A DNA stretch of 64,000 nt, from assembly GCF_030811115.1 (NCBI RefSeq), contig NZ_JAUSQK010000001.1, positions 186,001 to 250,000 on the forward strand, written 5' to 3'. This document shows, piece by piece, positions 6,726-33,143 of the stretch; positions within the stretch are counted from its first letter, which is position 1, and the number at the start of each line of letters is the position of its first letter. Under the pieces are notes generated by a model. It did not search any database and had not been told where the DNA came from. It was given only the letters and a program-made list of their open reading frames with translations. A program made the position numbers and the translations under genes. This DNA is from Olsenella profusa DSM 13989. Lineage in GTDB: Bacteria > Actinomycetota > Coriobacteriia > Coriobacteriales > Atopobiaceae.

Positions 6726-8985
6726 TGGTACCTCCATCGGTTACGACATGTGGGCCAAGGGGCGCCAGGAGCGACCGCAGTGCCGAGGGCCGCCCGGCCG
6801 AAGCCCTGGCCCGATCGGACTCTGCGGCGGCACCCGCATCGACGCCTGTGGCCGTCCCCGCATCGGAGGGGGCCGATGCCCCCTCCTCGACCGCGGGGCG
6901 GTCCCCGCCACCTCGTTCGGCCGTGGCCATGCGCCGCTCCACGGAGCTCACGAGCTTGATGAGCGGCAGCGTCACGATGAGGTAGTAGATGGCCGCCGCG
7001 ATGTAGGGCGTGATGTTGCCCGTGGTGTTGCTGATGTTCTTGGCAAACATCATGAGCTCCATGACGCCCACGGATGAGAGCAGTGACGTGTCCTTGTACG
7101 AGGTGATGAAGTCGCTCGTGACGGTGGGAATCACGCGACGGATCGTCTGGGGCAGGATGACCCACACCATGGTCTGCAGGGGACTCATACCCAGCGAGGA
7201 GGCGGCCTCGTACTGGCCATCCGGTATGGACTGGATGCCGGCACGATAGATCTCGGCCTGGTAGGCGGAGGAGTTGATGGCCACCACGATGACGCCAAGG
7301 ACCACGTTGTCGATGTTGACGCCCATCATGGGCAGGCCAAAGAACATGAGGTAGATCTGCAGGAAGAACGGCGTCCCTCGCAGCACGTTGACGTAGAGGG
7401 ACGAGAGGCCACGCAGCACGGCATGGCGCGAGATGCGCATGAGGGCGAACACGAGCCCCAGCAGGATGGCACAGGGGTAGGCACACAGCACCAGCACCAG
7501 GCAGAGCAGCCAGCCGGGAAACAGGCGCGCGAATGACGTCACCAGGATCTGGGGCTTGAGGAACGTGCCCAGGAAGGGCACGGAATTCCACGCGGCGACC
7601 CAGGCCTGGTCATCCAGCCATGTGACCGTCGCCTGCAGCGGCGTGATGGCAATGGTGTGGATGCTGGGCGAGGCGGGAATGACACCCGCAAGGCCCATCG
7701 CCGTCTCATAGCCTCCCGATACGGCGAAGTCCCCACCACCGCTTGGGAAGCGCATGTTCGTGGCCTCGATGCGCAGCAGAGAGCCGTCCTGCACGGGCGT
7801 GTCGAAGGTGACCGTGAGCGTGGAACCCTCCACGCTCACGGTCGTGGGAACCTCAAGGCGGTCGAGGCCAGAGAGCACCGTCACGCGCGTGCTGGCATGC
7901 TCGAGGCTGGAGCCTTCGGGCAGCTGAAGGGTGACGGACGAGACGCCATCGGCCACATGGACGGTTCCCTCCCAGGTGAGGCGCGTATCGATGCCGCCGA
8001 TGATGGAGTCGCCTCCCTCCTCGTTGGGGCGTGCCGTCGCCTTGCCGACGGTGATGCTGCCTGCGCCCGACGAGTCGATGGCGTCGTCACCCGTGGAGAG
8101 CGTGGCGACATCTGACGAGGACGCACCGCCGAACCACTTCTTGTCGAGGGCGTCGATGGTGCCGTCGTCACGGCATTGCTGCAGGGCGTCGTTGAGTGCC
8201 TCGGTGAGGCTGGGGTTGTCCTTGGAGACCACGAGCCCAAACTGCTCGCCCGTGGGCACCTGCAGTGCGATGCGGAGATCGGTGAACGAGTTCATGCACT
8301 CGTACCGCATCACGGGGAGGTCGGCGATCGTGGCCGTGTAGAGGCCGCTCTGCACGCCCGTAAGAGCGGCGATGGCGTCGTCGAGGGCAACTATCTGGGC
8401 GTTGGGCAGGTTCTCGCGCGCCCACTGGTCGGCCGTCGTGCCCGATTGCACGGCAATGGTAGCGCTGGGCACATTGAGGCTCTGATAGTCGCGCGCCACG
8501 GCGTCGGAGGTGCCGGCGGGCGTGACGATACCCAGGTTGGAGTCGATGTAGGGATTGGTGAAGTCGACCTCCTGCAGGCGCTCGTCCGTGATGGTGAGGT
8601 TGGAGGCGCCCACGTCGGCCTTGCCGCCCTGCCTGATCATGGGAATGATGGAGTCGAACTTCTGTGGTGGCAGATACTCGCAGGTAAGGCCCATCTTTGC
8701 GGCAAGCGCCTGCATGAGCTCCACCTCATAGCCCGCCGGCGCGGCGGCATCGTCCATGTAGTCGAAGGGAGGGTTTGCCAGATCGGAGACGACGGTGAGC
8801 GTCCCTGGTGTCACCGTGGTGTAGGCGGGCGCCTGTGCCCCGCTCGCCCCCTGGTCGTCCTGCCGTACGCCGCACCCCGCAAGGAACGGCACGAGCGCGG
8901 CGACGACCAGCGCAAGTGCCATGGCGAGGATCGGGTGCCCCGTCTTGCGATGGGCCCTTCCGTGCGTGCCATGCGCAGTCTGCAT
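6712..8985 (-). CDS. Fused substrate-binding protein and permease of an amino-acid ABC importer
   Basis: A 757-residue lipoprotein-permease fusion. The N-terminus is a lipoprotein signal with lipobox LAGC (Cys38). Residues about 55-300 form a type-3 periplasmic binding domain ([24 protein letters not shown]). About 320-430 is an additional beta-rich segment that is not part of the standard binding protein or permease. About 470-690 is the HisM/GlnP-type membrane domain with the EAA-loop region ([20 protein letters not shown]). The C-terminal 60 residues are Ala/Gly/Asp-rich. Binding-protein/permease fusions are known in Gram-positive glutamine importers; the middle domain is less usual. An extended -10 promoter lies directly upstream. 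Confidence 0.92.
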
Positions 8986-9037
8986 GCTGGACCTCCCCGA
9001 GGCGGACCATGAATCACCAATCGGAAAGTTGAAGGAA

Positions 9038-9093
9038 ATTATACCAGCAGCTGATTATGGCTTCGTTACCTTATCGTGTACCTGAATAATACC
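9038..9093 (-). promoter_or_regulatory. Extended -10 promoter and phased GGTA repeats upstream of the ABC transporter
   Basis: The minus strand has TGGTATAAT (TATAAT at 9038-9043 with TG extension), 46 or so bases before the ATG, and no good -35. Upstream, GGTA occurs three times at 9067-9070, 9079-9082 and 9090-9093, spaced by 12 and 11 bases, i.e. on one DNA face. This could be an activator site compensating for the weak -35. Confidence 0.45.
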
Positions 9094-9172
9094 TGGGGTC
9101 ATTATGCGTATGACCGTATCAGGCACACACCCGATGCGGGGCAAGGGGTGCGCAGGCAGGGCGGTGCGTTTC

Positions 9173-10519
9173 CTAGATGCCAACGTAGTAGGTCGTACGC
9201 TCCCAGTCCGTGACGACGGAACAATACTCATCCCACTCGCTCCACTTCTGCTCCACAAGGTAGTCGCAGATATGGTCGCCCAGCGTCTCATGCATGAGCT
9301 CGCTCTTGTCGAAGCTCTTGATGGCCTCGCCCAGGTTGCGCGGCAGGCGATGGATCCCCCGGCGCGTGAGCTCGGCGTCACTGAGCTTCTCGAGGCCCGA
9401 GAACGACTCCTCGGGCAGCTTGAGACCCTCCTCGATGCCACGGACCCCGGCGGCCACGCTCGCGGCGATGGCAAGGTAGGGGTTGGCGGCGGGATCGGGA
9501 TTGCGCAGCTCGACCCTCGTCGCCTGATGCTTGCCCGGCTTGTGGGTGGGCACGCGCACCAACGCGGCGCGATTCTTGCGCCCCCACGTGGTGTAGATAG
9601 GCACCTCGCCGTTGGGGATGAGGCGCTTGTAGGAGTTGACCGTGGGATTGGTGACCAGGAGGAACTCGGGCGCATACGCGAGCAGCCCCGCCACGTAGCT
9701 CTGGCCAAGCGGCGAGAGGTGCGCGGGATGCCCCTCCTTGGGGCCCCAGAAGAGGTTCTCCCCATCGTGGTTGAAGATGGACTCGTAGAGGTACATGCCC
9801 GAGCCCGAGAAGTCCGAGAACGGCTTGGGCATGAAGGACGCCATGAAACCGTGCTCGTTGGCCTCGCGGCGGATCACGAGGCGCGCGGTCATGATGTTGT
9901 CCGCCGCGGTGATCGCCTCGGCATAGCGCAGCTCGATCGCGTTCTGGGAGGGGGCGTTGCTGTGATAGGAGTACGAGACGGGAATGGACATCCGCTCGAG
10001 CGAGAGCGTGGTCTCGCGACGGATGTCGGTGGCGAAGTCGGAGGACGTGAGGTCGAAGTAGCCGGCACCATCCACCGTCTCGGGGATGTCGGAGTTCCGG
10101 TCGTGCAGGTAGAAGTAGTCGAGCTTGGGGCCGACGTTGATGACATAGCCCTTCTCGTCCGCCTGTTCGAAGATCCTGCTCAGCACGGAGCGCGAGTCGC
10201 CGGCGAACGGCTCGCGACTCGGCGTGCGCACGTCACAGAACATGCGCGCGGCGGCATGTGCCTCGGGACGCCACGGCAGCACCTGAAAGGTGGTGGCATC
10301 AGGGAAGGCCAGCATGTCCGACTCCTCCTGCGAGACGAAGCCCTCGATGGACGAGCCGTCGAAGCCGATGCCCTCCATGAACGCCTCCTCGAGGTCCTCC
10401 GAGGAGATGGAGAACGACTTGAGCTTGCCCAAGACATCCGTGAACCACAGCTGCACGAAGCGGACGTTGCGCTTCTCTATGGTCCGCAGGACGAAGTCGA
10501 TGTTCCTGTCATCACTCAT
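9173..10519 (-). CDS. glnA: Type I glutamine synthetase
   Basis: Makes glutamine from glutamate, ammonia and ATP. The 448-residue protein carries the GS signature regions: FDGSSIEGF near the N-terminus, the Glu-rich metal site YFDLTSSDFATDIRRE, the Asn/Gly region FMPKPF, and NPTVNSYKRLIP with the ATP-site region RNPDPAANPYLA. The Tyr adenylylation segment of the beta subgroup (NLYDLPP) is absent, placing it in the GSI-alpha group that is feedback-regulated rather than adenylylated. The start at 10519 (MSDDRN) follows GAGGAGGG; seven upstream residues in the frame are not needed. It lies just upstream of the amino-acid ABC importer on the same strand but in a separate transcription unit. Confidence 0.96.
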   Translation of the reverse strand: MSDDRNIDFVLRTIEKRNVRFVQLWFTDVLGKLKSFSISSEDLEEAFMEGIGFDGSSIEGFVSQEESDMLAFPDATTFQVLPWRPEAHAAARMFCDVRTPSREPFAGDSRSVLSRIFEQADEKGYVINVGPKLDYFYLHDRNSDIPETVDGAGYFDLTSSDFATDIRRETTLSLERMSIPVSYSYHSNAPSQNAIELRYAEAITAADNIMTARLVIRREANEHGFMASFMPKPFSDFSGSGMYLYESIFNHDGENLFWGPKEGHPAHLSPLGQSYVAGLLAYAPEFLLVTNPTVNSYKRLIPNGEVPIYTTWGRKNRAALVRVPTHKPGKHQATRVELRNPDPAANPYLAIAASVAAGVRGIEEGLKLPEESFSGLEKLSDAELTRRGIHRLPRNLGEAIKSFDKSELMHETLGDHICDYLVEQKWSEWDEYCSVVTDWERTTYYVGI

Positions 10520-20560: not shown

Positions 20561-21391
20561 TCATGCCTCCCCTTCCGAGCGTTCGCACAGGCCCCCAGAA
20601 GCGAGGATGTACATGTCTCGCGCCTTCTCCTCCAGAAGCCGTGCATACGGGACGTCTCCCAGCTTTTCGCGAAGGACCTTTGCGGCCATACGGTAGAACT
20701 CCCCCGCCCGAACGTAGTCACCCCTCAAGTAGGCAATGCGAGCTGCCGTGGCCAGGGCGTGGGGGCGATGGACGTCACGGCCGGCATTGAGCGTCTCATA
20801 TATCACGAGAGCGCCAACGATGACCTCGGCCGCCTCCTCGACCCTCCCCTCGTCCATGAGAACCTGGGCCAGGTTGATGGCGTTCGTCGCACGCACGCCA
20901 TCGGATCCGGGGACCGTCTCCAGAAGCCGTCCCGCCCGCCTGAGATCAGAGTGTGCCTCTGCAAATCGATTCATGCCGCGCAGTGCGCTGCTACGGTTGT
21001 TGCAGATCGCGCTCATCTCATATTGGTGACCATCCTCGTCTCCCAGCAGCGCCTCCGTGGCATCGAAGGTGTCAACGGCGGCGGCAAAGCGGCCCCGAGC
21101 CACATAGACGTCGCCCAGGTTGACGAGCGCCCGCGCACGGTCCTCTGCGCCGACATCCATCGATTCGAGCAGACGCACAACCGTGTCGTAGAGCCATTCC
21201 GCTTCCGCAAGGTCGCCACGTAGGCGCAGGACGCTTCCCAGTTCATTGGCTGAGGCCACCTCCGCGGGCTTGTCACCGGCGAGTCGGGCGCGTCGGAGTA
21301 CCTTCCGAAGGAAGCCTTCGACGTCTGAACCCGACTCGCCATAGAGTCGATCGAGCTCCGTATAGAAGTCCGAGAGCCCCACGCAAGTCAC
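20561..21391 (-). CDS. Tetratricopeptide repeat protein
   Basis: A 276-residue all-helical protein with about five or six TPR-like units: ELGSVLRLRGDLAEAEWLYD, ALVNLGDVYVARGRFAAAVD, NNRSSALRGMNRFAEAHSDL, and INLAQVLMDEGRVEEAAEVI show the alternating small/hydrophobic pattern. No enzymatic motif. The GTG start at 21391 shares a base with the TAG stop of the aldehyde dehydrogenase gene, so it is coupled to the microcompartment genes. TPR proteins generally mediate protein interactions; the partner may be DUF4037 or a shell or enzyme component (inference). Confidence 0.85.
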   Translation of the reverse strand: MTCVGLSDFYTELDRLYGESGSDVEGFLRKVLRRARLAGDKPAEVASANELGSVLRLRGDLAEAEWLYDTVVRLLESMDVGAEDRARALVNLGDVYVARGRFAAAVDTFDATEALLGDEDGHQYEMSAICNNRSSALRGMNRFAEAHSDLRRAGRLLETVPGSDGVRATNAINLAQVLMDEGRVEEAAEVIVGALVIYETLNAGRDVHRPHALATAARIAYLRGDYVRAGEFYRMAAKVLREKLGDVPYARLLEEKARDMYILASGGLCERSEGEA

Positions 21392-23049
21392 TACTCCCCG
21401 CGGAATGCCGAAACCAGCTCGTTAATCATCTTGTTCAGTTCGTCGGCATCAACGACATCACTCTTGCTCGGTCCATCCTGTATGGCCTGGGGGGTGCAGC
21501 TGTTGCAGCCAACGGAATAGCTGATACCGCTCGTGTCATGGCCCACGGGGACCTCGATTCCCACGTCACTGCCCGTGGTGGGTACAGCCGCGACATCGGC
21601 AGCCTCGGCATGGGCACAGCTGCCGCTCGTGCATCCATACTCGCCGACGAGCTCGGGATGCCACTTGGCAAAGGTCTCGTCCACCGCAGCAACCTGGTCG
21701 GGCTCGATGATGCCGTTGGCGACGCGCTTGACGTTGATGAGATGCTGGGGGCCAACATTCTCGGAGACGGAGCTGCCGCCCCAGGTGCCACATCCTAGCG
21801 TCAGCGCAACGTCGAGACCGGTGGAGAGGCCCGTGCCACCCTGGGTGCCACCCGTGTTGATGAGGATGCGGGAAGCCGGCTTGACAGAGAACTTGCGAAC
21901 GATCTCCTTGTCCTCGGTATGAATGTTCATCGTATGGCCGATGCCATTCTGGAGGAGGGTGATGGAGAGGTCGCAGGCCTCGTGCCAGTCAGCGACGGTG
22001 TAGAAGCCGAGGACGGTCGTGAGCTTCTCGTAGGAGAGAGGCCAATCGGGACCGACGCCATGCTGCTCGCCGATGAGGACCTTGGTGTCTGCGGGAACGC
22101 AGATGCCGGCGGCCTTGGCGATGCTCTGGGCATCGTGACCAACGAAGTTGGGGCTCATCGAGTGACCGTTGCGGAACAGGATCGAACAGACCTTCTTGCA
22201 CTCGTGCTCCGACATGAAGTAGCCACCCTGGGCCTTGAACTCGGCAACGACCTCATCGTGGTTCACAGTCTCGCAGATGACGCTCTGCTCGGAGGCGCAG
22301 ATGGTGCCGTTGTCAAAGGTCTTGGAGGCCATGATGCGACGAACGGCGTCATGGACGTTGGCGGAACGTTCGATGTACGAGGGCGAGTTGCCTGCGCCAA
22401 CGCCAAGGGCCGGCTTGCCGGAGCTGTAGGCGGCCTTGACCATGCCAGGACCACCGGTCGCGATAATCATCTTGACCTCGGGGGCGTGCATGAGCTCGTT
22501 GGTGGCCGCGATGGTCGCCATGCTCACGCCCTGGATGACGTTCTCGGGGGCGCCCGCCGCGACGGCGGCGTCGTTCATGAGCTTGATGGCCAGGTTGGTG
22601 CACTTGGCCGCCTTGGGGTGGGGCGAGAAGACGATGGCGTTGCGTGCCTTGAGGGCGATCATCGACTTGTAGAGGACCGTGGAGGTCGGATTGGTGGAGG
22701 GCACGATGCCCATCACGAGACCAACTGGCTCCGCAATGGCGATGACCTGCTTCTCCTCGTCGACATCGATGACACCGATGGTCTTGGCGTCCTTGATCTG
22801 CTCGTAGAGCAGGCCGGAAGCCATGTGATTCTTCAATATCTTGTCATGGACGTTGCCAAAGGTGGTCTCCTCGACAGCCATCTCAGCAAGCTGCCTGGCA
22901 TTCTTCTCGGCAACCTCGACCATGGCACGAAGGATGCGATCGATCTGCTCTGCGCTGTAGTTTGCGATCTGGTTGGCGGCAACCTGGCCCCTGCGCGCAA
23001 GGTTGCGCACGGCCTGGATGCTCTGGAGATCGTAATCGTATTCCTGCAT
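21391..23049 (-). CDS. CoA-acylating aldehyde dehydrogenase of the microcompartment
   Basis: Oxidises acetaldehyde to acetyl-CoA with NAD+ and CoA. The 552-residue enzyme has the catalytic Cys251 in NGTICASEQSV, glycine-rich ATGGPGMVK, PSTNPTST and the C-terminal family signature LTLGCGTWGGSSVSENVGP. A long C-terminal extension (about 465-552) contains two Cys clusters (YGCTSGSC and VGCNSC) and ends in an amphipathic helix (DELNKMINELVSAFRG) of the type that targets enzymes into microcompartments. This is the functional counterpart of the degenerate homologue at 30965. Confidence 0.93.
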   Translation of the reverse strand: MQEYDYDLQSIQAVRNLARRGQVAANQIANYSAEQIDRILRAMVEVAEKNARQLAEMAVEETTFGNVHDKILKNHMASGLLYEQIKDAKTIGVIDVDEEKQVIAIAEPVGLVMGIVPSTNPTSTVLYKSMIALKARNAIVFSPHPKAAKCTNLAIKLMNDAAVAAGAPENVIQGVSMATIAATNELMHAPEVKMIIATGGPGMVKAAYSSGKPALGVGAGNSPSYIERSANVHDAVRRIMASKTFDNGTICASEQSVICETVNHDEVVAEFKAQGGYFMSEHECKKVCSILFRNGHSMSPNFVGHDAQSIAKAAGICVPADTKVLIGEQHGVGPDWPLSYEKLTTVLGFYTVADWHEACDLSITLLQNGIGHTMNIHTEDKEIVRKFSVKPASRILINTGGTQGGTGLSTGLDVALTLGCGTWGGSSVSENVGPQHLINVKRVANGIIEPDQVAAVDETFAKWHPELVGEYGCTSGSCAHAEAADVAAVPTTGSDVGIEVPVGHDTSGISYSVGCNSCTPQAIQDGPSKSDVVDADELNKMINELVSAFRGE

Positions 23050-23092: not shown

Positions 23093-23704
23093 CTACTCGG
23101 CGCTGGGCAGGATGGACTCGACCATGCCGTCCGGGCGCGGGATGACGTGGACGCTCAGGAGCTCGCCCACGCGCTGGGCCGACGCCGCGCCGGCGTCGGT
23201 GGCGGCCTTGACGGCCCCCACGTCGCCGCGGACGAAGACGGTGACCAGGCCGCCGCCCACGCGCTCCTTGCCGACGAGGCGGACGTTGGCCGCCTTGACC
23301 ATCGCATCGGCCGCCTCGACGGCGCCGACCATGCCCTTGGTCTCGATCATTCCGAGTGCCTCAGTGACGTTTGCCACTGTGATAACCTCCTTGCTGCTGG
23401 GTGCGACCTCTGCAGGTCGAACCGCGGTCTTGGATGCGTCATGTGCAGATGCCTCTGCAGCGGATTCGCCCTTTGCCACCGGGACGGCAGAGACGCTGGG
23501 AGCAGGCTTTGTCGCACGGGCAGCAGAAGTTGTCGACTTCTTATGAGAGGTGGACATGCGGCCCGCACTCCCTCGCCCCGTCTCGCCCCTTGGATGATTC
23601 ACTGGGGTCTGGGCAGCCTCAGACGCCTTGCCCCTCCCACCAGAAGGACGAGAGGGCGGCATGACCTTGCCATCGCCCTCTTGTCCCGACTTCTTCGTGG
23701 CCAT
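23093..23704 (-). CDS. BMC-H shell protein fused to a basic, low-complexity N-terminus
   Basis: A 203-residue protein. Residues about 110-203 are identical to the two neighbouring BMC-H proteins ([15 protein letters not shown] ... [16 protein letters not shown]). Residues 1-109 are Lys/Arg/Ala/Ser/Pro-rich and predicted disordered. The start at 23704 follows the previous BMC stop by 5 bases; an internal Met (about residue 50, at 23557) is an alternative. The tail could tether cargo, nucleic acid or neighbouring shells. The DNA of the BMC part is a perfect repeat of the upstream copies. Confidence 0.85.
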
Positions 23705-23708
23705 GTGC

Positions 23709-23996
23709 CTAGGCCTCGGCGCTGGGCAGGATGGACTCGACCATGCCGTCCGGGCGCGGGATGACGTGGACGCTCAGGAGCTCGCCCACGCGCTGGGCCG
23801 ACGCCGCGCCGGCGTCGGTGGCGGCCTTGACGGCCCCCACGTCGCCGCGGACGAAGACGGTGACCAGGCCGCCGCCCACGCGCTCCTTGCCGACGAGGCG
23901 GACGTTGGCCGCCTTGACCATCGCATCGGCCGCCTCGACGGCGCCGACCATGCCCTTGGTCTCGATCATTCCGAGTGCCTCAGTGACGTTTGCCAT
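23709..23996 (-). CDS. BMC-H shell protein (repeat copy 2)
   Basis: A canonical 95-residue hexameric shell protein ([49 protein letters not shown]), identical to copy 1 except for an extra C-terminal Ala. Its ribosome binding site, AAGGAGG, lies inside the repeated DNA. Confidence 0.95.
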
Positions 23997-24059
23997 GATG
24001 TTTCCTCCTTGGGTTCACGGGCACACCAGCCCGCATGACGCTGTGGGTTTGCACTATTC

Positions 24060-24344
24060 CTACTCGGCGCTGGGCAGGATGGACTCGACCATGCCGTCCG
24101 GGCGCGGGATGACGTGGACGCTCAGGAGCTCGCCCACGCGCTGGGCCGACGCCGCGCCGGCGTCGGTGGCGGCCTTGACGGCCCCCACGTCGCCGCGGAC
24201 GAAGACGGTGACCAGGCCGCCGCCCACGCGCTCCTTGCCGACGAGGCGGACGTTGGCCGCCTTGACCATCGCATCGGCCGCCTCGACGGCGCCGACCATG
24301 CCCTTGGTCTCGATCATTCCGAGTGCCTCAGTGACGTTTGCCAT
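24060..24344 (-). CDS. BMC-H shell protein (repeat copy 1)
   Basis: A 94-residue BMC-domain protein forming hexagonal facets, of the EutM/PduA type. First of three identical BMC copies; 42 bases after pduL. The leader with AAGGAGG is shared base for base with copy 2. Confidence 0.95.
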
Positions 24345-24386: not shown

Positions 24387-25286
24387 CTACCTAACGACCC
24401 GAAGGGTAGAGCCACACTTGATGTGGAGCGCGTTCGCCTCCTCGGTGTCGATGTGACAGTCGAGGTTGCCGCTCTTGGTCACGCGAATGATCACGTTGTC
24501 GAGCTGACCGCCACGATCGCCCTCCACCTTGAGTGAGACGACCTCTCCGTCATAGAAGCCGCGCTCGGCCGCCTGGGCAGGGTTCATGTGAATGTGACGG
24601 GCGGCCACAATGACACCCTCCTCAAGGGTCACGGAACCCTTGGGACCAACGACGGTCACGCCAGGGGTTCCCTCAAGATGCCCAGAAAGGCGAACCGCCT
24701 GGGGAATACCAAGCCTAAAGGTGTCGCCAGCCAGAACCTCGATCTGAGTCTGGGAACGAACGGGTCCCAGCACGCGGACCCTCTCGATGACACCGTTGGG
24801 TCCCGCAAGAGTCACGCACTCCTGAGCGGCGAACTGACCGGGCTGGCTCAGGTCCTTCAGGGGTGTGAGCTGATAGCCCGTGCCAAACAGACGGTCCAGA
24901 TCGTGCTGAGACAGGTGGATGTGACGGCCAGAGATGCCAACCGGAACGACATCGGGGTCAATGGTCGAGTCCCTCTTACCAAGCAAGGGCTCGATGTCGT
25001 CCTGCGTCCAGATGCCCTTCGCGAAGGCGGCGGAGATAAGATGCTCGAGTTCGTCGGCAGAGAAGACTGGCTCTGCGTCCTTTGTATCATGCCGCCCGCA
25101 GCCCTCCTCCTGTGTGGCCTCATGCGCGGCATGGTCGTGCCGCCCGCTCTTGTCGAGAACGGCCACGCCATGCTCCTTTGCAACGTCGAGCGCCTGGGCC
25201 GTCACGATGGTGTTTTCATCAACATAGATGTCCTCATGCCCACGTGCGGCTGTCATAACGTCCTGCGAACTTATAAGTCTCTTCAT
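24387..25286 (-). CDS. pduL: PduL-type phosphotransacylase with extended N-terminus
   Basis: Converts acetyl-CoA and phosphate to acetyl phosphate, recycling CoA in the compartment. The C-terminal 200 residues carry two metal-binding motifs, GRHIHLSQ and ARHIHMN, with VLGPVRSQTQIEV between them. The 299-residue length exceeds classic PduL (about 210). The N-terminus (KRLISSQDVMTAARG ... ENTIVTAQALDVAKEHGV) resembles the leading domain of EutQ/EutT-type proteins and is joined by a His/Glu-rich linker. It may act in encapsulation (inference). Confidence 0.9.
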   Translation of the reverse strand: MKRLISSQDVMTAARGHEDIYVDENTIVTAQALDVAKEHGVAVLDKSGRHDHAAHEATQEEGCGRHDTKDAEPVFSADELEHLISAAFAKGIWTQDDIEPLLGKRDSTIDPDVVPVGISGRHIHLSQHDLDRLFGTGYQLTPLKDLSQPGQFAAQECVTLAGPNGVIERVRVLGPVRSQTQIEVLAGDTFRLGIPQAVRLSGHLEGTPGVTVVGPKGSVTLEEGVIVAARHIHMNPAQAAERGFYDGEVVSLKVEGDRGGQLDNVIIRVTKSGNLDCHIDTEEANALHIKCGSTLRVVR

Positions 25287-25570: not shown

Positions 25571-25862
25571 GGGCGTCGTCCTTTCCCTCGCGAATCCGCC
25601 TTAGGCACTCCATGACCTCGGCGGTCTCCCCCGCGATGGCGAGCATCACCATGTTCTGCGGGCAGGATCCACGTACGTCAGTGACGATCACGCCGGCCGT
25701 CTTCTCGGCGATGTCGCTTGCGACGACCATCTCGATCAACTTGCCCTGGACAAGTCCCACGGCAGCAGGTCTGAAGTCCTCTGGCCACCGGACTCCGCTC
25801 CTCTGGCGAATGATCTGCATGGTGCCGGGCGCCGGTGCCTTGATGACGCTGATATCGATCAT
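25557..25862 (-). CDS. GrpU-like BMC-domain protein
   Basis: A 101-residue protein. Its central part follows the BMC pattern (VASDIAEKTAGVIVTDVRG ... NMVMLAIAGETAEVMECL). In the pore-loop position it has GSCPQN, with a Cys where GrpU-type shell proteins of glycyl-radical compartments are reported to hold an iron-sulphur cluster. The N-terminus is ISVIKAPAPGTMQ. ATG overlaps the stop of the EutJ-like gene (ATGA). The BMC fold is moderately sure; the cluster is inference. Confidence 0.7.
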   Translation of the reverse strand: MIDISVIKAPAPGTMQIIRQRSGVRWPEDFRPAAVGLVQGKLIEMVVASDIAEKTAGVIVTDVRGSCPQNMVMLAIAGETAEVMECLRRIREGKDDAHDCR

Positions 25863-26704
25863 GGGTGCGGCCCCCTTGCCTCACGCACGCAGCCCAATGC
25901 GATGCCTAGGGGCGTGACGAACGACGGGTGGTTGGGCTTGCGGACATCAATGCCAAGCTCGCGTTGTATCCTGTCCTCGATGCCGTTCAGCTCTGCCGTG
26001 CCGCCCACAAGGATGACCTCGTCCACGCCGTAGCCCTCGCAGGCACGCTGGATGATCGACATCACCTTGTCGATGGTGGGCGAGACGATGGGAAGGATCT
26101 CCTTGTGATGCTCGGGATCCCGCTTATAGAGTTCCGCATCGCCAAAACTCATCCCTTTTGCGCCGGCAAGCACAAGCGAGAAGTGTGTACCACCGGTAGA
26201 CTCGTCGACGCACTTGATGGCCCTGCCATCCTTGAAGACGGAGACACCCGTCGTACCACCACCGATGTCGACGACCGCTCCGTTGTCCGTGCCGATGAGC
26301 AGGTTGGCAGCTGTAGGCTCATCAAACACCGCGGTGCAGGTAAGACCTGTGCTCTCTGCGACGTTGCGCACCGCACCACCATCGAGCGCCTCCGTCTCTG
26401 GCGGGATCGCCACCGCACATCGGTCAAGCTCCACGCCTAGCTCCGACTCGATCCGCGCCTTGAGGGATGCGGCGATATCGCAGGCACCGATGTAGTTAAC
26501 GACCATGCCATCCCTGACGACGTCTGCGAACTGGTACTTGCAGTCAATGGGGTTGCCGCTCTCGTCCAACACGACCAGGACGATGAAGGCGGTGCCAAGG
26601 TCGAGTCCGCAATAGAGCGGCTGGCCCTCCTTGACCTTCTTGGGATGGTCGACGCAGTCCACAAGCTCTTGGAGCCTCTGGTTTGTCAGCTCGAAGTCGA
26701 CCAT
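25859..26704 (-). CDS. EutJ-like Hsp70-family chaperone
   Basis: A 281-residue actin/Hsp70-fold ATPase homologous to EutJ. Phosphate-1 loop YCGLDLGTAFIVLVVLD, IPPETEAL, phosphate-2 VVDIGGGTTGVSVF and adenosine region VILVGGTAELNG are visible. It lacks a substrate-binding domain, as do EutJ proteins. A likely role is folding or reactivation of encapsulated enzymes. AGGAGGTG precedes the ATG. Confidence 0.92.
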   Translation of the reverse strand: MVDFELTNQRLQELVDCVDHPKKVKEGQPLYCGLDLGTAFIVLVVLDESGNPIDCKYQFADVVRDGMVVNYIGACDIAASLKARIESELGVELDRCAVAIPPETEALDGGAVRNVAESTGLTCTAVFDEPTAANLLIGTDNGAVVDIGGGTTGVSVFKDGRAIKCVDESTGGTHFSLVLAGAKGMSFGDAELYKRDPEHHKEILPIVSPTIDKVMSIIQRACEGYGVDEVILVGGTAELNGIEDRIQRELGIDVRKPNHPSFVTPLGIALGCVREARGPHP

Positions 26705-27389: not shown

Positions 27390-28343
27390 TCAGTGCTTCA
27401 CAAGGCGTACCTTGAAGTCCGCCGCCTCGATCCACCCTTCCAGGCGGTCCAGGTCACCATCGCTCAGCGAGGGATCGCCCTCTATCTCGTAGTCGCGACC
27501 AAGCGATGCGTACTTTCCGACCCCAAGCTTGTGATAGGGCAATAGATCGACGCCGTCGAAGTTCTTCTGGTACCGGTACGGCTTGAAGAAGGCGATCACC
27601 GCATCGATCTCTTCCTTCGAGTCGTTCACCCCCTTGAGCAGGGGCATGCGCACGCGGACGTTGAACCCGTTCTCCAGGAGCGTCTGGACATTAGCGAGGA
27701 TCAGCTCGTTGTTCACACCCGTCCAGTACTTATGCCTGACGGGATCCATCTGCTTGATGTCGAACAGGAACAGGTCGACGTACTGTGCGATTCTCAAGAT
27801 CGTGGGCATGGGAGCATATCCGCAGGTCTCGATTGCGGTGTGATGGCCACGTGTCTTCGAGGCCATGAGGATGGAGAGGGTTGCCTCCGGTTGGGCGAGC
27901 ACTTCTCCACCAGAGAGAGTGATGCCGCCGCCAGACATGCGGTAGAAGTCGACATCCTCGTCGAGGAAGTCCATGATGTCATCGATCGAGCGGTCGTCGC
28001 CCATGATCTCAAGGGCATGGTACATGCAGGCCTTCTCACACGCACGACAACCGATGCACTGGACGCTGCGGTCGACCTCATGAACGCCATCGGCCATTCT
28101 GTGGACGCCGACCGGACAGGCTGCGGCACAGGCACCGCAGCTGACGCAGTTCGCACGCTTGAACATGACCTCATGCCCACGCTGCTGGCTCTCCGGGTTG
28201 GAGCACCACTTGCAACGTAGGGGGCAACCCTTGAGGAAGGCCATGGAGCGCACGCCCGGGCCGTCGTACATGTTGTACTTCTGGAGGTTGAAGACGCGTA
28301 CCGTACGCTCGACGCTGCCTTGCTCGTGGTCCGTCATCGTCAC
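27390..28343 (-). CDS. cutD: Choline TMA-lyase activating enzyme (radical SAM)
   Basis: Installs the glycyl radical on CutC using S-adenosylmethionine. The 317-residue protein has the radical-SAM CX3CX2C motif (GCPLRCKWC, Cys40/44/47), a ferredoxin-like insert with two 4Fe-4S motifs (CVSCGACAAACPVG and CIGCRACEKACM), and GGGITLSGGEVLAQ. Standard for glycyl-radical activases. Directly downstream of cutC, 75 bases apart. Confidence 0.95.
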   Translation of the reverse strand: MTMTDHEQGSVERTVRVFNLQKYNMYDGPGVRSMAFLKGCPLRCKWCSNPESQQRGHEVMFKRANCVSCGACAAACPVGVHRMADGVHEVDRSVQCIGCRACEKACMYHALEIMGDDRSIDDIMDFLDEDVDFYRMSGGGITLSGGEVLAQPEATLSILMASKTRGHHTAIETCGYAPMPTILRIAQYVDLFLFDIKQMDPVRHKYWTGVNNELILANVQTLLENGFNVRVRMPLLKGVNDSKEEIDAVIAFFKPYRYQKNFDGVDLLPYHKLGVGKYASLGRDYEIEGDPSLSDGDLDRLEGWIEAADFKVRLVKH

Positions 28344-28418: not shown

Positions 28419-30962
28419 TTAGAACTTCTTCAGCACGGTTCGGCTGATGATCTCGTCCTGGACGTCCTTGCAGAGCTCGTTGAAGAACGCAGAGTAGCCA
28501 GCGACGCGGACGACGAGGTCACGGTGGTTCTCGGGATGCTTCTGGGCGTCAATGAGCGTCTTGTTGTCGAGGTAGTTGAACTGCATTTCGCCATTGCCGA
28601 ACATCGATGCGGTGCGTAGCAGGGTGACGAGTCCGTCCTCACCCTCACGTGTGTCAAGCAGACCGCTCATGAGCTTGAAGTTATGGACCATGCCGATGTT
28701 CATCGAGTCGTTGGCGAGCTTGGAGACCGACTTGATGATGGCAGTTGGGCCGTTGTGGTCGGCCCCCTGGCTTGGGCTGATGCCGTCGGAGAGGGGCGTC
28801 CATGCCTTGCGGCCATTCGCAGACGCACCGGTCATCTCGCCGAAGGGCGTATTGTTGGAGATGGAAAGCGTGCCGGTCGACATGTGCGAGTACAGGGTCT
28901 TGAACTTCACGTGGATGCTCTCCGTGTAGTAGAGCAGATCGGCCGCGATCCCGTCGGCATAGTCGTCATCGTTGCCATACTTCGGCGTATCGATGCAGTC
29001 CTGGCGCATGCGCTCGAAGCCGACGAAATCCGCCTTGAGTCCCTCGTTAAGCTGCTCGAGCGTGTACTTGTGCTCATCGAACACGAGCTTTTTGATGGCA
29101 GCCATGGAGTCGGTGTAGGTGCCCAGGCCCGTCCACACGACGCCGGGACCATAGTTGTACATGGCACCGCCAGCCGAGACGTCCTTGCCGCTCTCCATGC
29201 AGCCCTCGTACATGATCGACATGAGGGGCTTTGGGGCCACATCGCGGGCCACGCGCTGCGAGATGACCGTCGCGACGTCAGTCCACTTCGTGACGTAATA
29301 TATGGTCTTCTTCACGGCAGCGTCGAACTCCTCGTACGTCTTGTACTGGGAGAGGTCGCCGAGGTCGGGGGTAACCTGCTTGCCGTACCAGAGGTCGACG
29401 CCATGGTTGAGCGTGAGCTCGATGCAGATGGGCCACTGCGTATAGGACGTGGAGGTCCACTGATAGAGTCGGCCGGACTTCTGGGGCTCGACGCACCCCA
29501 TCATGCAGTAGTCGCGAGCGTCCTCGACGCTGACGCCCTTCGCAAGCATCATCTTGATGTGCGTGTCGTCAAAGTGACAGGCGGGAAAGCCCATGCCCGA
29601 GCGCACGAGGTCAACGATCTTGCGCATGTACTTCTCGGGAGACTTGTTATGGATGCGGCAGGCAATGGTGGGCTGGTAGATCTTGACGTGACGCGCGGCA
29701 TCCATCAGGAGGTAGGTGAGCTCGTTCGTCGCGTCGTCACCCTTGCGCGTGACGCCTCCGAGCGTCATGTTGATGAAGGGTTGGTACCCCGCGAAGAACT
29801 CGGATTGGCCACGGGACGTGACCCACATCATCTCGCTCATCTTGATGAGCATGCAGCCCGCGATGTCGAAGGCCTGATATGGCGTGATGCGGCCGGCCTC
29901 GACGTCGGCCTTGTAGAAGGGGTACATGTACTGGTCGACGCGACCGATGGACATCCCCGTCTGGTTCTCCTCGACGGGGAGAAGGCTCTCGATGACGAAG
30001 ACGGACTGCACGGCCTCCCAGAAGGTGCTGGGCTTGTGGGCGGGAACGTGCGTAAGGATGGTGGAGATCTGCTCGAGCTCTGCCTTGCGCTTCGCGTCAT
30101 GACACTCGCTCGCAAGCTGTGCCGCATAGTCGCTCATGCGCTTGGCGTAGGTCATGACGCCCTCGGTGGTGTCGATGACGCTCTTGTAGAAGTAGATCTT
30201 GTCGAGGTCCTCGGGATTGGCATAGTCGAGCTGCTCCAAGTGCCGCTTAGCCTCCTCCTGGATGTCGACCATACCCTTCCTCATGAGGATGACGTCGTAA
30301 CCGGGGTTGGAGTCACCACCGCCACTCATGGCATGGTAGGAGCAATCGGAGACGAAGGACTCACCGGAGAGCTCCCAGACGCCCGCCTCACGATACTGGT
30401 CCTCGCAGATCTCGTCCTGGGACTTGCCCTCCCAGAAGGGAAAGAGGACGTCGCGACAGTACTGCTTGTCCTCCTCAGAGATGTAGAAGGGGTCCTGCGG
30501 ACGGGTGCCGATGGTGTCAAGCTCGTCACGCAACCAGCGCCACGCGAGGTCGGGGGAGAACGCTCCGGCGCGCGGAGCGCCGCAGGGGGCGCCAACGATG
30601 AGTTCGTCATCCTGGATGACCAGCGGTGCGGTCTCGCAGCAGCGACGGAACGCCTTGGCGCGCAGCTCGATCTTCGGCATGCCAGGGTTGGCCTTCATGA
30701 TCTCGGTAACCGCACGTGCGCGATACATCGTGATGCTGGGGACCTGCTTGAGGAAGTTGTCCTTCAGACGAGCCTGACGCTCGGTGGGACCATCGGGCAC
30801 GTCGTAGGGCTCGTTGCCACTCACATGTACGGGATTGGAGGTGTCAGGCGCATCGAGCTGGTCTGCCACCTTCTCGAACATCTTGCGGACGGTCGCGCGC
30901 TGCTCCTCGGACATGTCCCTGGTAGCATCGGACAGCTCCTTTGCAAACTCCTTGATGTCCAT
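28419..30962 (-). CDS. cutC: Choline trimethylamine-lyase (glycyl radical enzyme)
   Basis: Cleaves choline to trimethylamine and acetaldehyde. The 847-residue protein (ATG at 30962 behind GAGGAG; a GTG two codons upstream is less likely) shows the full set of residues known from Desulfovibrio alaskensis CutC, each shifted by one: Tyr209 and Asp217 ([15 protein letters not shown]), Phe396, Cys490 and Glu492 (GCVEP), Thr503, Tyr507, and the radical Gly822 (VRVAGYSAF). The constant offset across 600 residues distinguishes it from pyruvate formate-lyase and diol dehydratases. The length places it in the short type I group, not the extended type II group. Confidence 0.97.
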
Positions 30963-30964
30963 TC

Positions 30965-32509
30965 TCACTCCTCTTCACTAGCGCCCTGCATGGCCTTGAC
31001 GACACCGGAGAACCAGCTCTCCGGATCCATACCTTGTTTCGTACGTTCACGCTTGGAAGCAGGCTCCGCGCGGCTCGCTGTCGTGCTGTCTGGGATGCGG
31101 ATCCGCACGGTTACGGGCGTGTGGTCGCACGCGCTGGCCTTATCGAGAAGTTCGCGCTCCACGGTTCCCGCACCTATTCCCACCTGTCGCCTGCGGACGA
31201 AGTCGCCGTAGGTGACACCCAGCTCGGACGTGGTCGCGCAATCCCAACCCGTGACCGTGAGCGTCTTGGGAAGGTCGCTGTGGCAGCCGATGCAGCCGAG
31301 CCCCGTGCTCACATTGACCAATACCCTTCCCACGGGCTTCTTCAGGATGAACTGGCGGATGACCTCGGGATCCCTTGAGAAGATCGACAGCGCGTTACCA
31401 TGACCGCTGTTCAGGATGAGCTCGATGCACTTCTCGCAGGCCGTGCGCCAGCTGTCTTCCACGTAGTACGAAAGGACGGGGCCGAACTTGGCCTTCGAGA
31501 AGAAGCTGTACTCGCTGACATAGGGCTTCTCCACCACGAGCACCTTGGTGCCCTTGGGTACCGTGATGTCCGCACGTCGTGCGAGGTCGAAGGCACTCTT
31601 CGCGATCAGCTCGCGATAGGGCGTCCCATCCTTCGCGAAGAGCGTGCCAACCAGGCGATCAGCCTGCTCGTCGGTAAGGAAGTGGCACCCCCGCTGGCGA
31701 AGCTCCTCTTGGAAGCGCTCATCCACATCGCGCTCGACCACCACACTCTGCTCCGCACCGGGAAGCATGCCGCAACAGAACGACTTGCCCAAGACGACCT
31801 CGTCCGCGCAGGACGCAAGGTCGGCCGTGGACTCGACGAAGACGGGGTTGTTGCCCAAGGTCGCGTGGTAGACGTCCTTGCCGGCACCGTCGACGGCACG
31901 GGAGGAATGCTCCTCGCGCGAGTCGATGACGACGTGGACGCACGACCGCGAGCAGACCCATTCCTCACCCTCTGCGCAGAAGACACTCAGAAAGCCGATG
32001 GCCTCTGCGGGGTAGTGGCAGAAGTCCGCTATCTCGAGGATGTCGTTCATGACCCTCTCGCACGTGGAGTGAATGCGCGAGCTGGCAGAGAAGACGATGG
32101 GGCTCTTCGAGCGCACCGCCATGAAAAGCTGGCTCAACATCGTGGGGACCGCAAGCCATTCCGGAAGCAGCGAGACAACCACGCCCTTGGAGAGGCAGAC
32201 CTCGGCCGACCCCCTGCGGGAACGGATGATCTTCTGGACTGGCGCCTCGGCACACACGTCGGCCATCAGGTCCGTGAGAACCCACTTGGTGAGGGCTGCC
32301 TCGTCATACGGAGAGCAGTAGTCGCTTTCGGCGTAGGATGCCTCGGCGTATTCCTCCGCCCGGGGCAGCAGACGCTCACCTAGGTGGTGCAGGAAGTCAT
32401 CGACCAGCGACGCCGGCAGTCCCTCGAGTACCTCAACGGACTCGTTGGCATGCTCCAGGAGGATGCGTGCCTCCTGAATCGAGAGAAGGTCATTGTCTAT
32501 GAGAGACAT
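30965..32509 (-). CDS. Aldehyde dehydrogenase homologue lacking the catalytic cysteine
   Basis: A 514-residue ALDH-family protein next to cutC. Ungapped alignment with the other operon ALDH over 35 residues places Pro250 at the catalytic Cys ([15 protein letters not shown] against KTFDNGTICASEQSV); a Cys pair lies at 245-246 instead. The TGGPG nucleotide loop and the C-terminal GGxS signature are also altered ([10 protein letters not shown]). The N-terminus has an amphipathic helix of the targeting type ([18 protein letters not shown]). It is probably structural or regulatory rather than catalytic, unless Cys245/246 substitute. Confidence 0.85.
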
Positions 32510-32520
32510 CCGACGCCTCC

Positions 32521-32832
32521 CTAGTAGGGCAGGAGCTTCTCGACGGTGTACTTATCGGTGATCTTCCGCAGATCGGGATGTGGTCTTGGGATGACCACAG
32601 AGCTGTAGACCTCGGCACCCAGGGACTCGACGGCCCTGACACCGGCCGCGACGGCGGCCTTGCAGGCCGCGACGTCACCCTGGACGAGGATGGAGATGTA
32701 ACCGGATGCGGTATTCTCGTACCCAATGAGCTCGACGTCGCCGGCCTTGCACATGGCATCACCGGCCTCGAGGACCCAAACCAGGCCAAAGGTCTCGATG
32801 GCGCCAAGCGCGTCCATGCCCTCACCTGCCAT
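32521..32832 (-). CDS. BMC-H shell protein
   Basis: A 103-residue hexameric shell protein (ALGAIETFGLVWVLEAGDAM, ASGYISILVQGDVAAC) with a charged C-terminal tail. It is distinct from the tandem trio and lies 11 bases before the ALDH homologue. Confidence 0.94.
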   Translation of the reverse strand: MAGEGMDALGAIETFGLVWVLEAGDAMCKAGDVELIGYENTASGYISILVQGDVAACKAAVAAGVRAVESLGAEVYSSVVIPRPHPDLRKITDKYTVEKLLPY

Positions 32833-32843
32833 GATCCAGCCTC

Positions 32844-33143
32844 CTAGTTATAGTCCACATCGTGGACAGAGACAACGTCACCGATGGGTAGTACGGGTCT
32901 CCTCATGACATTCGCGGCAGTAAGTTTGCCGATGCTGGAGGCCGCTGCCTTGCCGGCCTTGACGGCGGCCTCGCAGGCGGCAACATCACCCTTGACGATG
33001 ATGGTGACCAATGTCGATCCGATATTCTCGTAGCTGACCAGCTCGGTGTCGCCAGCCTTCAGCATCGCATCGGCGGCATAGATGGCAGGGACCATCCCGA
33101 TGGTTTCGATGAGACCGATGGCCTCTCCTCCCCGGTAGCGCAT
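32844..33143 (-). CDS. BMC-H shell protein
   Basis: A 99-residue BMC-domain protein (AIGLIETIGMVPAIYAADAM, TLVTIIVKGDVAACEAA). First shell gene of the operon, 11 bases before the next BMC gene. Confidence 0.95.
   Translation of the reverse strand: MRYRGGEAIGLIETIGMVPAIYAADAMLKAGDTELVSYENIGSTLVTIIVKGDVAACEAAVKAGKAAASSIGKLTAANVMRRPVLPIGDVVSVHDVDYN

Follow-up and report, generated by a model that had tools for sequence, protein, structure and literature searches.

Why should a bacterium keep, directly in front of the gene for its choline-cleaving glycyl radical enzyme, an aldehyde dehydrogenase (ALDH) gene that has lost its active site? The question is raised by a locus of Olsenella profusa DSM 13989, which lies in a window of 64,000 nucleotides (the whole stretch of DNA we analyzed). 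The phenomenon is already in print. Axen 2014 (PMC4207490) has a passage on GRM1 loci with two ALDHs, in all of which the catalytic Cys of one has become Ser or Pro; it suggests "scaffolds or regulators" for this inactive second AldDH and places Olsenella uli among the GRM1 hosts. Sutter 2021 (PMC8217296) marks, in the part that concerns us, a putatively inactive second copy in both GRM1A and GRM1B. The window protein has the same locus type and the same Cys loss as the proteins in these two papers. It is a genuine pseudoenzyme, maintained by selection and of a type already described, and the scaffold idea has likewise been published. What we add is a probable descent from a GRM2-type ALDH and a set of invariant residues that are the pseudoenzyme's own, with the proviso that the tree figure of Sutter 2021 may already show the sister relation. 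Our search of the open-licence literature found no functional study of the pseudoenzyme and no account of CutC core assembly in GRM1 compartments.

The gene, its locus, and the lost active site

The pseudoenzyme gene sits in a CutC microcompartment locus that has shell genes and a second, Cys-bearing ALDH (CutF). The main features are as follows.

20561 to 21391, minus strand: TPR-repeat protein, immediately downstream of CutF
21391 to 23049, minus strand: catalytic acylating ALDH (CutF), Cys251 intact (TIGR02518, 707 bits, cut-off 620.1)
24387 to 25286, minus strand: phosphotransacylase, PTAC (PF06130, 248.2 bits)
25859 to 26704, minus strand: EutJ-like ATPase (PRK15080, 343.3 bits)
27390 to 28343, minus strand: cutD, CutC-activating enzyme (TIGR04395, 529.6 bits)
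28419 to 30968, minus strand: cutC, choline trimethylamine-lyase, 849 residues (TIGR04394, 1617.8 bits, cut-off 1050)
30965 to 32509, minus strand: ALDH-fold pseudoenzyme, 514 residues in one open frame read from 32509 to 30965
32521 to 32832, minus strand: BMC-H shell protein, immediately upstream of the pseudoenzyme gene (PF00936)
32844 to 33143, minus strand: BMC-H shell protein (PF00936)

Read along the minus strand, two BMC-H genes are followed by the pseudoenzyme, cutC and cutD, and the cutC frame, which starts with GTG, takes in the last four nucleotides of the pseudoenzyme gene. This gene content fits a GRM1 choline microcompartment, and from its position we take the pseudoenzyme gene to be the one named CutB in the literature. 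The window CutC is 100% identical to that of Olsenella profusa F0195. Another part of the locus, 23093 to 24344 on the minus strand, holds three consecutive BMC-H genes with a single 94-residue protein sequence common to all (in the third from residue 2), their DNA near-identical at 282/285 and 281/282 positions; we read them as the product of gene conversion or of a recent triplication. At its N-terminus the third is longer by about 110 residues, among which Lys, Ser and Ala abound.

An initial annotation of the pseudoenzyme gene had proposed that the frame is intact and its codon use normal, that catalytic Cys, the preceding DN pair, the nucleotide loop and the C-terminal signature are lost, and that selection acts on something besides classic catalysis. 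Frame and codon use are as it described, with a GC3 of 0.805 against 0.709–0.849 in nine genes of the locus. It had also called the alignment with CutF of the same operon gap-free; this was mistaken, since the two proteins share 24% identity over 453 columns with 14 gaps. The central substitution is as it said, and three elements can be located from the alignment.

31760 to 31762, minus strand: codon of Pro250, in place of the catalytic Cys (aligned with Cys251 of CutF)
31772 to 31777, minus strand: codons of C245–C246, aligned with D246–N247 of the active ALDH; a lineage quirk
31901 to 31927, minus strand: degenerate nucleotide loop, residues 195–203, IDSREEHSS

The Asn and the TGGP cofactor loop are functional elements of the catalytic acylating acetaldehyde dehydrogenases. 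In the window protein the Asn is L119, and the NAD loop, IATGGPGMV in CutF, reads IDSREEHSS, so that IDSREE stands where the TGGP loop should be. Glu and His, to which a section of PMC5311937 ascribes roles in acylating acetaldehyde dehydrogenase, are A340 and Asn, respectively, and the C-terminal stretch INTGGTQGGTG of CutF is altered too.

The fold is another matter. An AlphaFold2 model built from 61 sequences (mean pLDDT 88.7) has the ALDH fold, and its closest solved structures are 3k9d (Z 49.2, rmsd 2.7 over 445 aligned residues) and 5j78 (Z 47.8). Both are acylating acetaldehyde dehydrogenases of the TIGR02518 family, with which the pseudoenzyme has its predicted fold in common but not its active-site residues; against that family's model it scores 210.6 bits, well below the cut-off. 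Beyond the core the model has two further elements.

31025 to 31114, minus strand: predicted disordered linker, residues 466–495 (pLDDT below 50 at 466–472 and 474–495)
30971 to 31024, minus strand: predicted C-terminal helix, residues 496–513, encapsulation-peptide-like

Type I microcompartment ALDHs have an encapsulation peptide at the C-terminus, according to a passage of PMC8217296, and the modeled tail of the window pseudoenzyme resembles one. Its best helical moment, 0.41, is below that of most homologues, and in 9 of the 80 homologues compared below the tail is absent, the proteins ending 9–15 residues past the core.

Homologues beside cutC

We gathered the ALDHs beside cutC from the window, from 11 Atopobiaceae loci and from the best 80 of 265 named CutC loci. 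Identical sequences and fragments shorter than 350 residues (the pieces at L081, and L093 and L127) were left out of the residue counts, and 80 distinct sequences remained. Not one of the 80 has Cys at the catalytic position, the check that the initial annotation had called for among homologues of other phyla; the rows come from four phyla, and a Fusobacteriota copy (L212) has Pro there, like the window protein. Pro (41) and Ser (30), the two replacements that Axen 2014 (PMC4207490) reports in the passage cited above, are joined in our set by Ala (7), Thr (1) and Val (1). The other ALDHs of these loci keep Cys in 76 of 76. A local mutation or sequencing error can therefore be rejected, the latter also on the evidence of another genome of this species, whose protein is identical.

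Two of the initial annotation's claims hold for the window protein and do not extend to all homologues. The change of DN to CC is real in the alignment but local: Cys occupies the first position in 14 of the 80 homologues, and the second position is variable even in the 76 active ALDHs (Asn in 41, Tyr in 35). The nucleotide loop, degenerate in the window, is kept in many homologues of what we call the Ser type. The 24 Ser-type rows preserve T198 in 22, G199 in 24, P201 in 20, E341 in 22, H372 in 22 and T373 in 20 to 24, while Asn120 has become Ser in 23 and G200 has become Val in 21. Some of these copies exceed the curated NCBI cut-off for acetylating acetaldehyde dehydrogenase (G692:C48:42295-43773, for example, scores 679.3 bits with Ser in place of Cys), so automatic annotation would call them active enzymes. 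The window belongs instead to the Coriobacteria-type group, a strongly degraded branch compared with the inactive GRM1 AldDHs generally, in which cofactor loop, Asn, Glu and His have all changed. Throughout its 12 rows, one of which comes from a genome labeled Alkalibaculum, all six of the residues counted above are lost: Ser replaces T198, Arg replaces G199, a residue other than Pro replaces P201, Ala or Thr replaces E341, Asn replaces H372, and T373 is gone as well.

These counts bear on the idea of a ligand-binding regulatory subunit, one that would hold NAD(H), CoA or acetaldehyde, turn none of them over, and tune CutF or CutC. The intact ALDH fold of the predicted structure would suit such a part, and so would the residues that the Ser-type members retain. 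The Val that most Ser-type rows have for G200 speaks against it, however, and with all six cofactor-site residues lost in all 12 Coriobacteria-type rows, cofactor binding through them is not a function that the whole clade shares. We consider a regulatory subunit unlikely.

How faithfully does the gene accompany cutC? Among the best 80 of the 265 named loci, the gene or part of it lies directly upstream of cutC in 78, although in Anaerococcus hydrogenalis (L081) it is in pieces and some of the loci reach a contig end; it is absent from L071 and L104. Genome samples give a similar count. Of 140 genomes from the window's family, 12 have a CutC above the cut-off, and it is these 12 that have the pseudoenzyme, at 65–100% identity. 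The corresponding figures are 6 pseudoenzymes for 7 CutC genomes among 395 Thermodesulfobacteriota (the phylum of L101), 6 for 7 among 98 Fusobacteriota (the phylum of L119), and 12 for 14 among 398 Bacillota (the phylum of L094), where 8 copies are adjacent to cutC and 4 have an ADH-like gene between. Together the four samples have the pseudoenzyme in 36 of 40 CutC genomes, a set that overlaps in part with the organisms of the named loci.

The exceptions are of two sorts. At L071 (genome G146) and L104 (G147), BMC genes stand immediately before cutC, yet every strong ALDH match bears Cys. Three further genomes (G597, G636 and G940) have GRM1-like loci, again with BMC genes immediately before cutC, those of G597 and G636 looking alike; whole-genome searches found no pseudoenzyme in any of the three, and their strong ALDH matches bear Cys. 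Five GRM1 loci with shell genes thus manage without the gene, and it is therefore not always needed. Genome G161 is an exception of a different sort: there is no BMC-domain match anywhere in it, no pseudoenzyme, and a single weak ALDH match (47.4 bits). The six other short CutCs compared each have an N-terminal arm of some 40 residues, which the CutC of G161 lacks. The CutC and CutD genes of this genome (L178, 10052–13486) lie near a BCCT transporter, a GcvH-like protein, a pyridine nucleotide-disulfide oxidoreductase and a lipoate ligase.

Two other loci deserve a mention in their own right. Genome G117 holds the remains of a cutC (L179, about 7330–9500), broken by an internal stop; a whole-genome search for the pseudoenzyme returned an AdhE-sized match and a weak ALDH match, neither of them the pseudoenzyme, and this is a lost choline locus. 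G043 has a second CutC-like gene (C1:1277100-1279331, in L182), which scores 1168.4 bits, over the family cut-off, across model positions 44–787 and lies a few kilobases past that genome's GRM1 locus.

So constant a place, directly upstream of cutC and overlapping it by four nucleotides in the window, invites the thought that the pseudoenzyme serves the glycyl radical enzyme itself, by aiding CutD in the activation of CutC or by protecting or opening CutC. The distribution argues otherwise. G161 has a CutC/CutD pair, no BMC-domain matches and no pseudoenzyme, and the three GRM2 loci discussed below do without the pseudoenzyme, as do the five GRM1 loci. A service to CutC itself seems to us improbable.

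Constraint on the pseudoenzyme

The pseudoenzyme is constrained, less so than CutC. Pairwise dN/dS is 0.047–0.141 in 18 pairs, not all of them independent, compared with 0.029–0.148 for CutF (16 pairs) and 0.010–0.093 for CutC. Where the constraint acts is the more telling point. Mean entropy over 18 active-site columns is 0.09 bits in the active ALDHs and 1.87 in the pseudoenzymes, against averages over all columns of 0.85 and 1.69, respectively. Nine residues (F224, Y330, P344, E351, K360, C361, L374, S378 and V393) are identical in 64 of 64 non-redundant pseudoenzymes from four phyla. The same residues are rare in 52 active ALDHs: Y330 occurs in none, F224, P344, E351 and K360 in one each, L374, S378 and V393 in three each, and C361 in eight. 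Most of them fall within one stretch.

31331 to 31522, minus strand: segment 330–393, with most of the pseudoenzyme-invariant, active-rare residues (Y330, P344, E351, K360, C361, L374, S378 and V393)

When the pseudoenzymes are divided into six segments, residues 321–400 show the strongest conservation (1.11). Constraint has departed from the active site and has stayed, or arisen, elsewhere. The initial annotation's view that selection acts on something besides classic catalysis is borne out by the missing Cys, the dN/dS values and these invariant residues, which may form a binding or docking surface.

Could the protein be a cryptic enzyme with other chemistry, working for example through the invariant C361 or through a Ser nucleophile? 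C361 is present in every pseudoenzyme and Ser takes the place of Cys in three-eighths of the homologues, but 49 of the 80 have Pro, Ala or Val at the nucleophile position, C361 also turns up in active ALDHs, and conservation at the active-site columns falls below the clade's average; we regard this as highly improbable. That the gene is a functionless, decaying relic of a displaced enzyme, as its absence from five GRM1 loci and its fragmented state in A. hydrogenalis (possibly a draft-genome error) might hint, is barely credible given the low dN/dS, the residues invariant across four phyla and the single open frame of all 80 counted sequences, even if the start at L077 is shifted.

Ancestry and a possible role

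Where did the pseudoenzyme come from? In a tree of 71 rows, 30 pseudoenzymes, the window's included, form one clade (100/100), and the sister of that clade is the CutF of the GRM2 loci of E. coli, K. pneumoniae and P. mirabilis (100/98). The window protein lies beside the GRM2 CutF clade and not inside it, and the GRM1 CutFs make up a separate clade (100/100). For this tree we removed 11 fast or fragmentary pseudoenzyme rows and thinned what was left of the pseudoenzyme and CutF rows to about half. The pseudoenzymes stayed on one side of a branch and the sister relation persisted (100/97) in a tree of 79 rows from which fast rows were taken out and to which 17 other type I ALDHs were added (17 of 20 further ALDH loci gave a row). 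That tree also left out the Coriobacteria, Peptoniphilaceae and Lactobacillales pseudoenzymes, the window row among them, so the window's placement comes from the 71-row tree. GRM2 is represented in both trees by three enterobacterial loci only, and for K. pneumoniae the row holds a 437-residue open frame, because that ALDH stands in two pieces in the record. A recent duplication of the resident CutF can be rejected: a tree forced to group the pseudoenzymes with GRM1 CutF, a comparison that we settled on with the first result already in view, is 65.7 log-likelihood units worse (p-AU 0.00027).

Gene order tells a similar story. The four Bacillota loci with an intervening gene run pseudo-ALDH, ADH-like gene, cutC, and three of the four supply the rows (L239, L240 and L242) that branch first within the pseudoenzyme clade in both trees. 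At one of them (L236, the locus of row L240) the order is BMC-H, BMC-H, pseudo-ALDH, ADH and cutC, with the shell genes and ADH assigned by Pfam; the GRM2 order of E. coli is three BMC genes, ALDH, EutN, ADH and cutC. From the tree and the similar gene order, the pseudoenzyme looks like the counterpart of the working ALDH of GRM2 and not like a spare GRM1 copy. This suggests that it descends from a GRM2-type ALDH and is the displaced, older enzyme of the compartment.

The two compartment types divide their parts differently. Each of the three GRM2 loci we read has one ALDH place, with Cys where the pseudoenzyme has none, and a long CutC: 1128 residues in both E. coli and K. pneumoniae, and 1142, as an open frame, in P. 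mirabilis. The extra N-terminal part of about 340 residues, described in a section of PMC6971018, is missing in the GRM1 CutCs that we read. In GRM1 the CutC is short, catalysis falls to a separate CutF, and the pseudoenzyme is usually present. According to the same section of PMC6971018, GRM2 CutF shifts CutC to larger complexes, the CutC N-terminal domain being needed, and the authors propose that CutF cross-links the GRM2 core.

We can now return to the question at the outset. The reading we prefer, and to which we give about an even chance, is that the pseudoenzyme is a displaced ancestral ALDH that has lost its active site and is kept as a non-catalytic partner of the CutC core. Its ancestor would be the ALDH that remains the working enzyme in the choline microcompartments of GRM2. 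In the lineage leading to GRM1, catalysis would have been taken over by another ALDH, the CutF of the operon, and the older protein would have lost its active site and been retained for an additional, non-catalytic job. Made together with CutC, and presumably binding CutC, CutF or both, it would help to hold the CutC/CutF core together and to bring that core into the shell. In this division of labor, the old ALDH would have kept the structural half.

A role in core assembly, which the initial annotation had put forward as an example, is favored by three things: the protein's closest kin is GRM2 CutF, for which PMC6971018 describes an interaction with CutC; its gene lies next to cutC; and its predicted C-terminal helix is encapsulation-peptide-like. 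The role is weakened by the five GRM1 loci that have shell genes and no such gene. The displaced-enzyme reading also gains from G161, where BMC-domain matches, the pseudoenzyme and the CutC arm are missing together. Evolutionary distances did not help us to name the partner. Those of the pseudoenzyme correlate with those of CutC (0.79), CutD (0.81) and EutJ (0.80) alike, and the partial correlation with CutC, 0.705 with three proteins, falls to −0.13 once CutD, EutJ and two shell proteins are added; CutC is therefore not singled out, and we draw nothing from the distance test. In C. ljungdahlii, an excerpt of PMC12016505 reports, an ALDH gene beside the choline lyase gene is induced on choline (log2 7.2, versus 7.9 for the lyase). 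This ALDH is presumably the pseudoenzyme, given where it lies and given that the C. ragsdalei copy has Pro.

A more specific form of the displaced-enzyme reading is offered tentatively. GRM1 might have kept the ancestral ALDH purely as a structural part, a bridge from CutC to CutF and shell, standing in for what the CutC N-terminal domain and the catalytic CutF provide in GRM2; Y330, P344, E351, K360, C361, L374 and S378 would then be its docking surface.

What follows from this? One consequence concerns annotation. A 2026 review (PMC13258700), in the part on these genes, gives CutB/F as two predicted CoA-acylating oxidoreductases, CutB thus being listed as a predicted oxidoreductase, and one GRM1 copy is annotated as "aldehyde dehydrogenase family protein"; for a protein of this kind such names are a trap. 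The other concerns the compartment. The breakdown of choline by CutC yields trimethylamine, and if the displaced-enzyme reading is true, the pseudoenzyme would be a handle on the assembly of the GRM1 core, with named residues to mutate.
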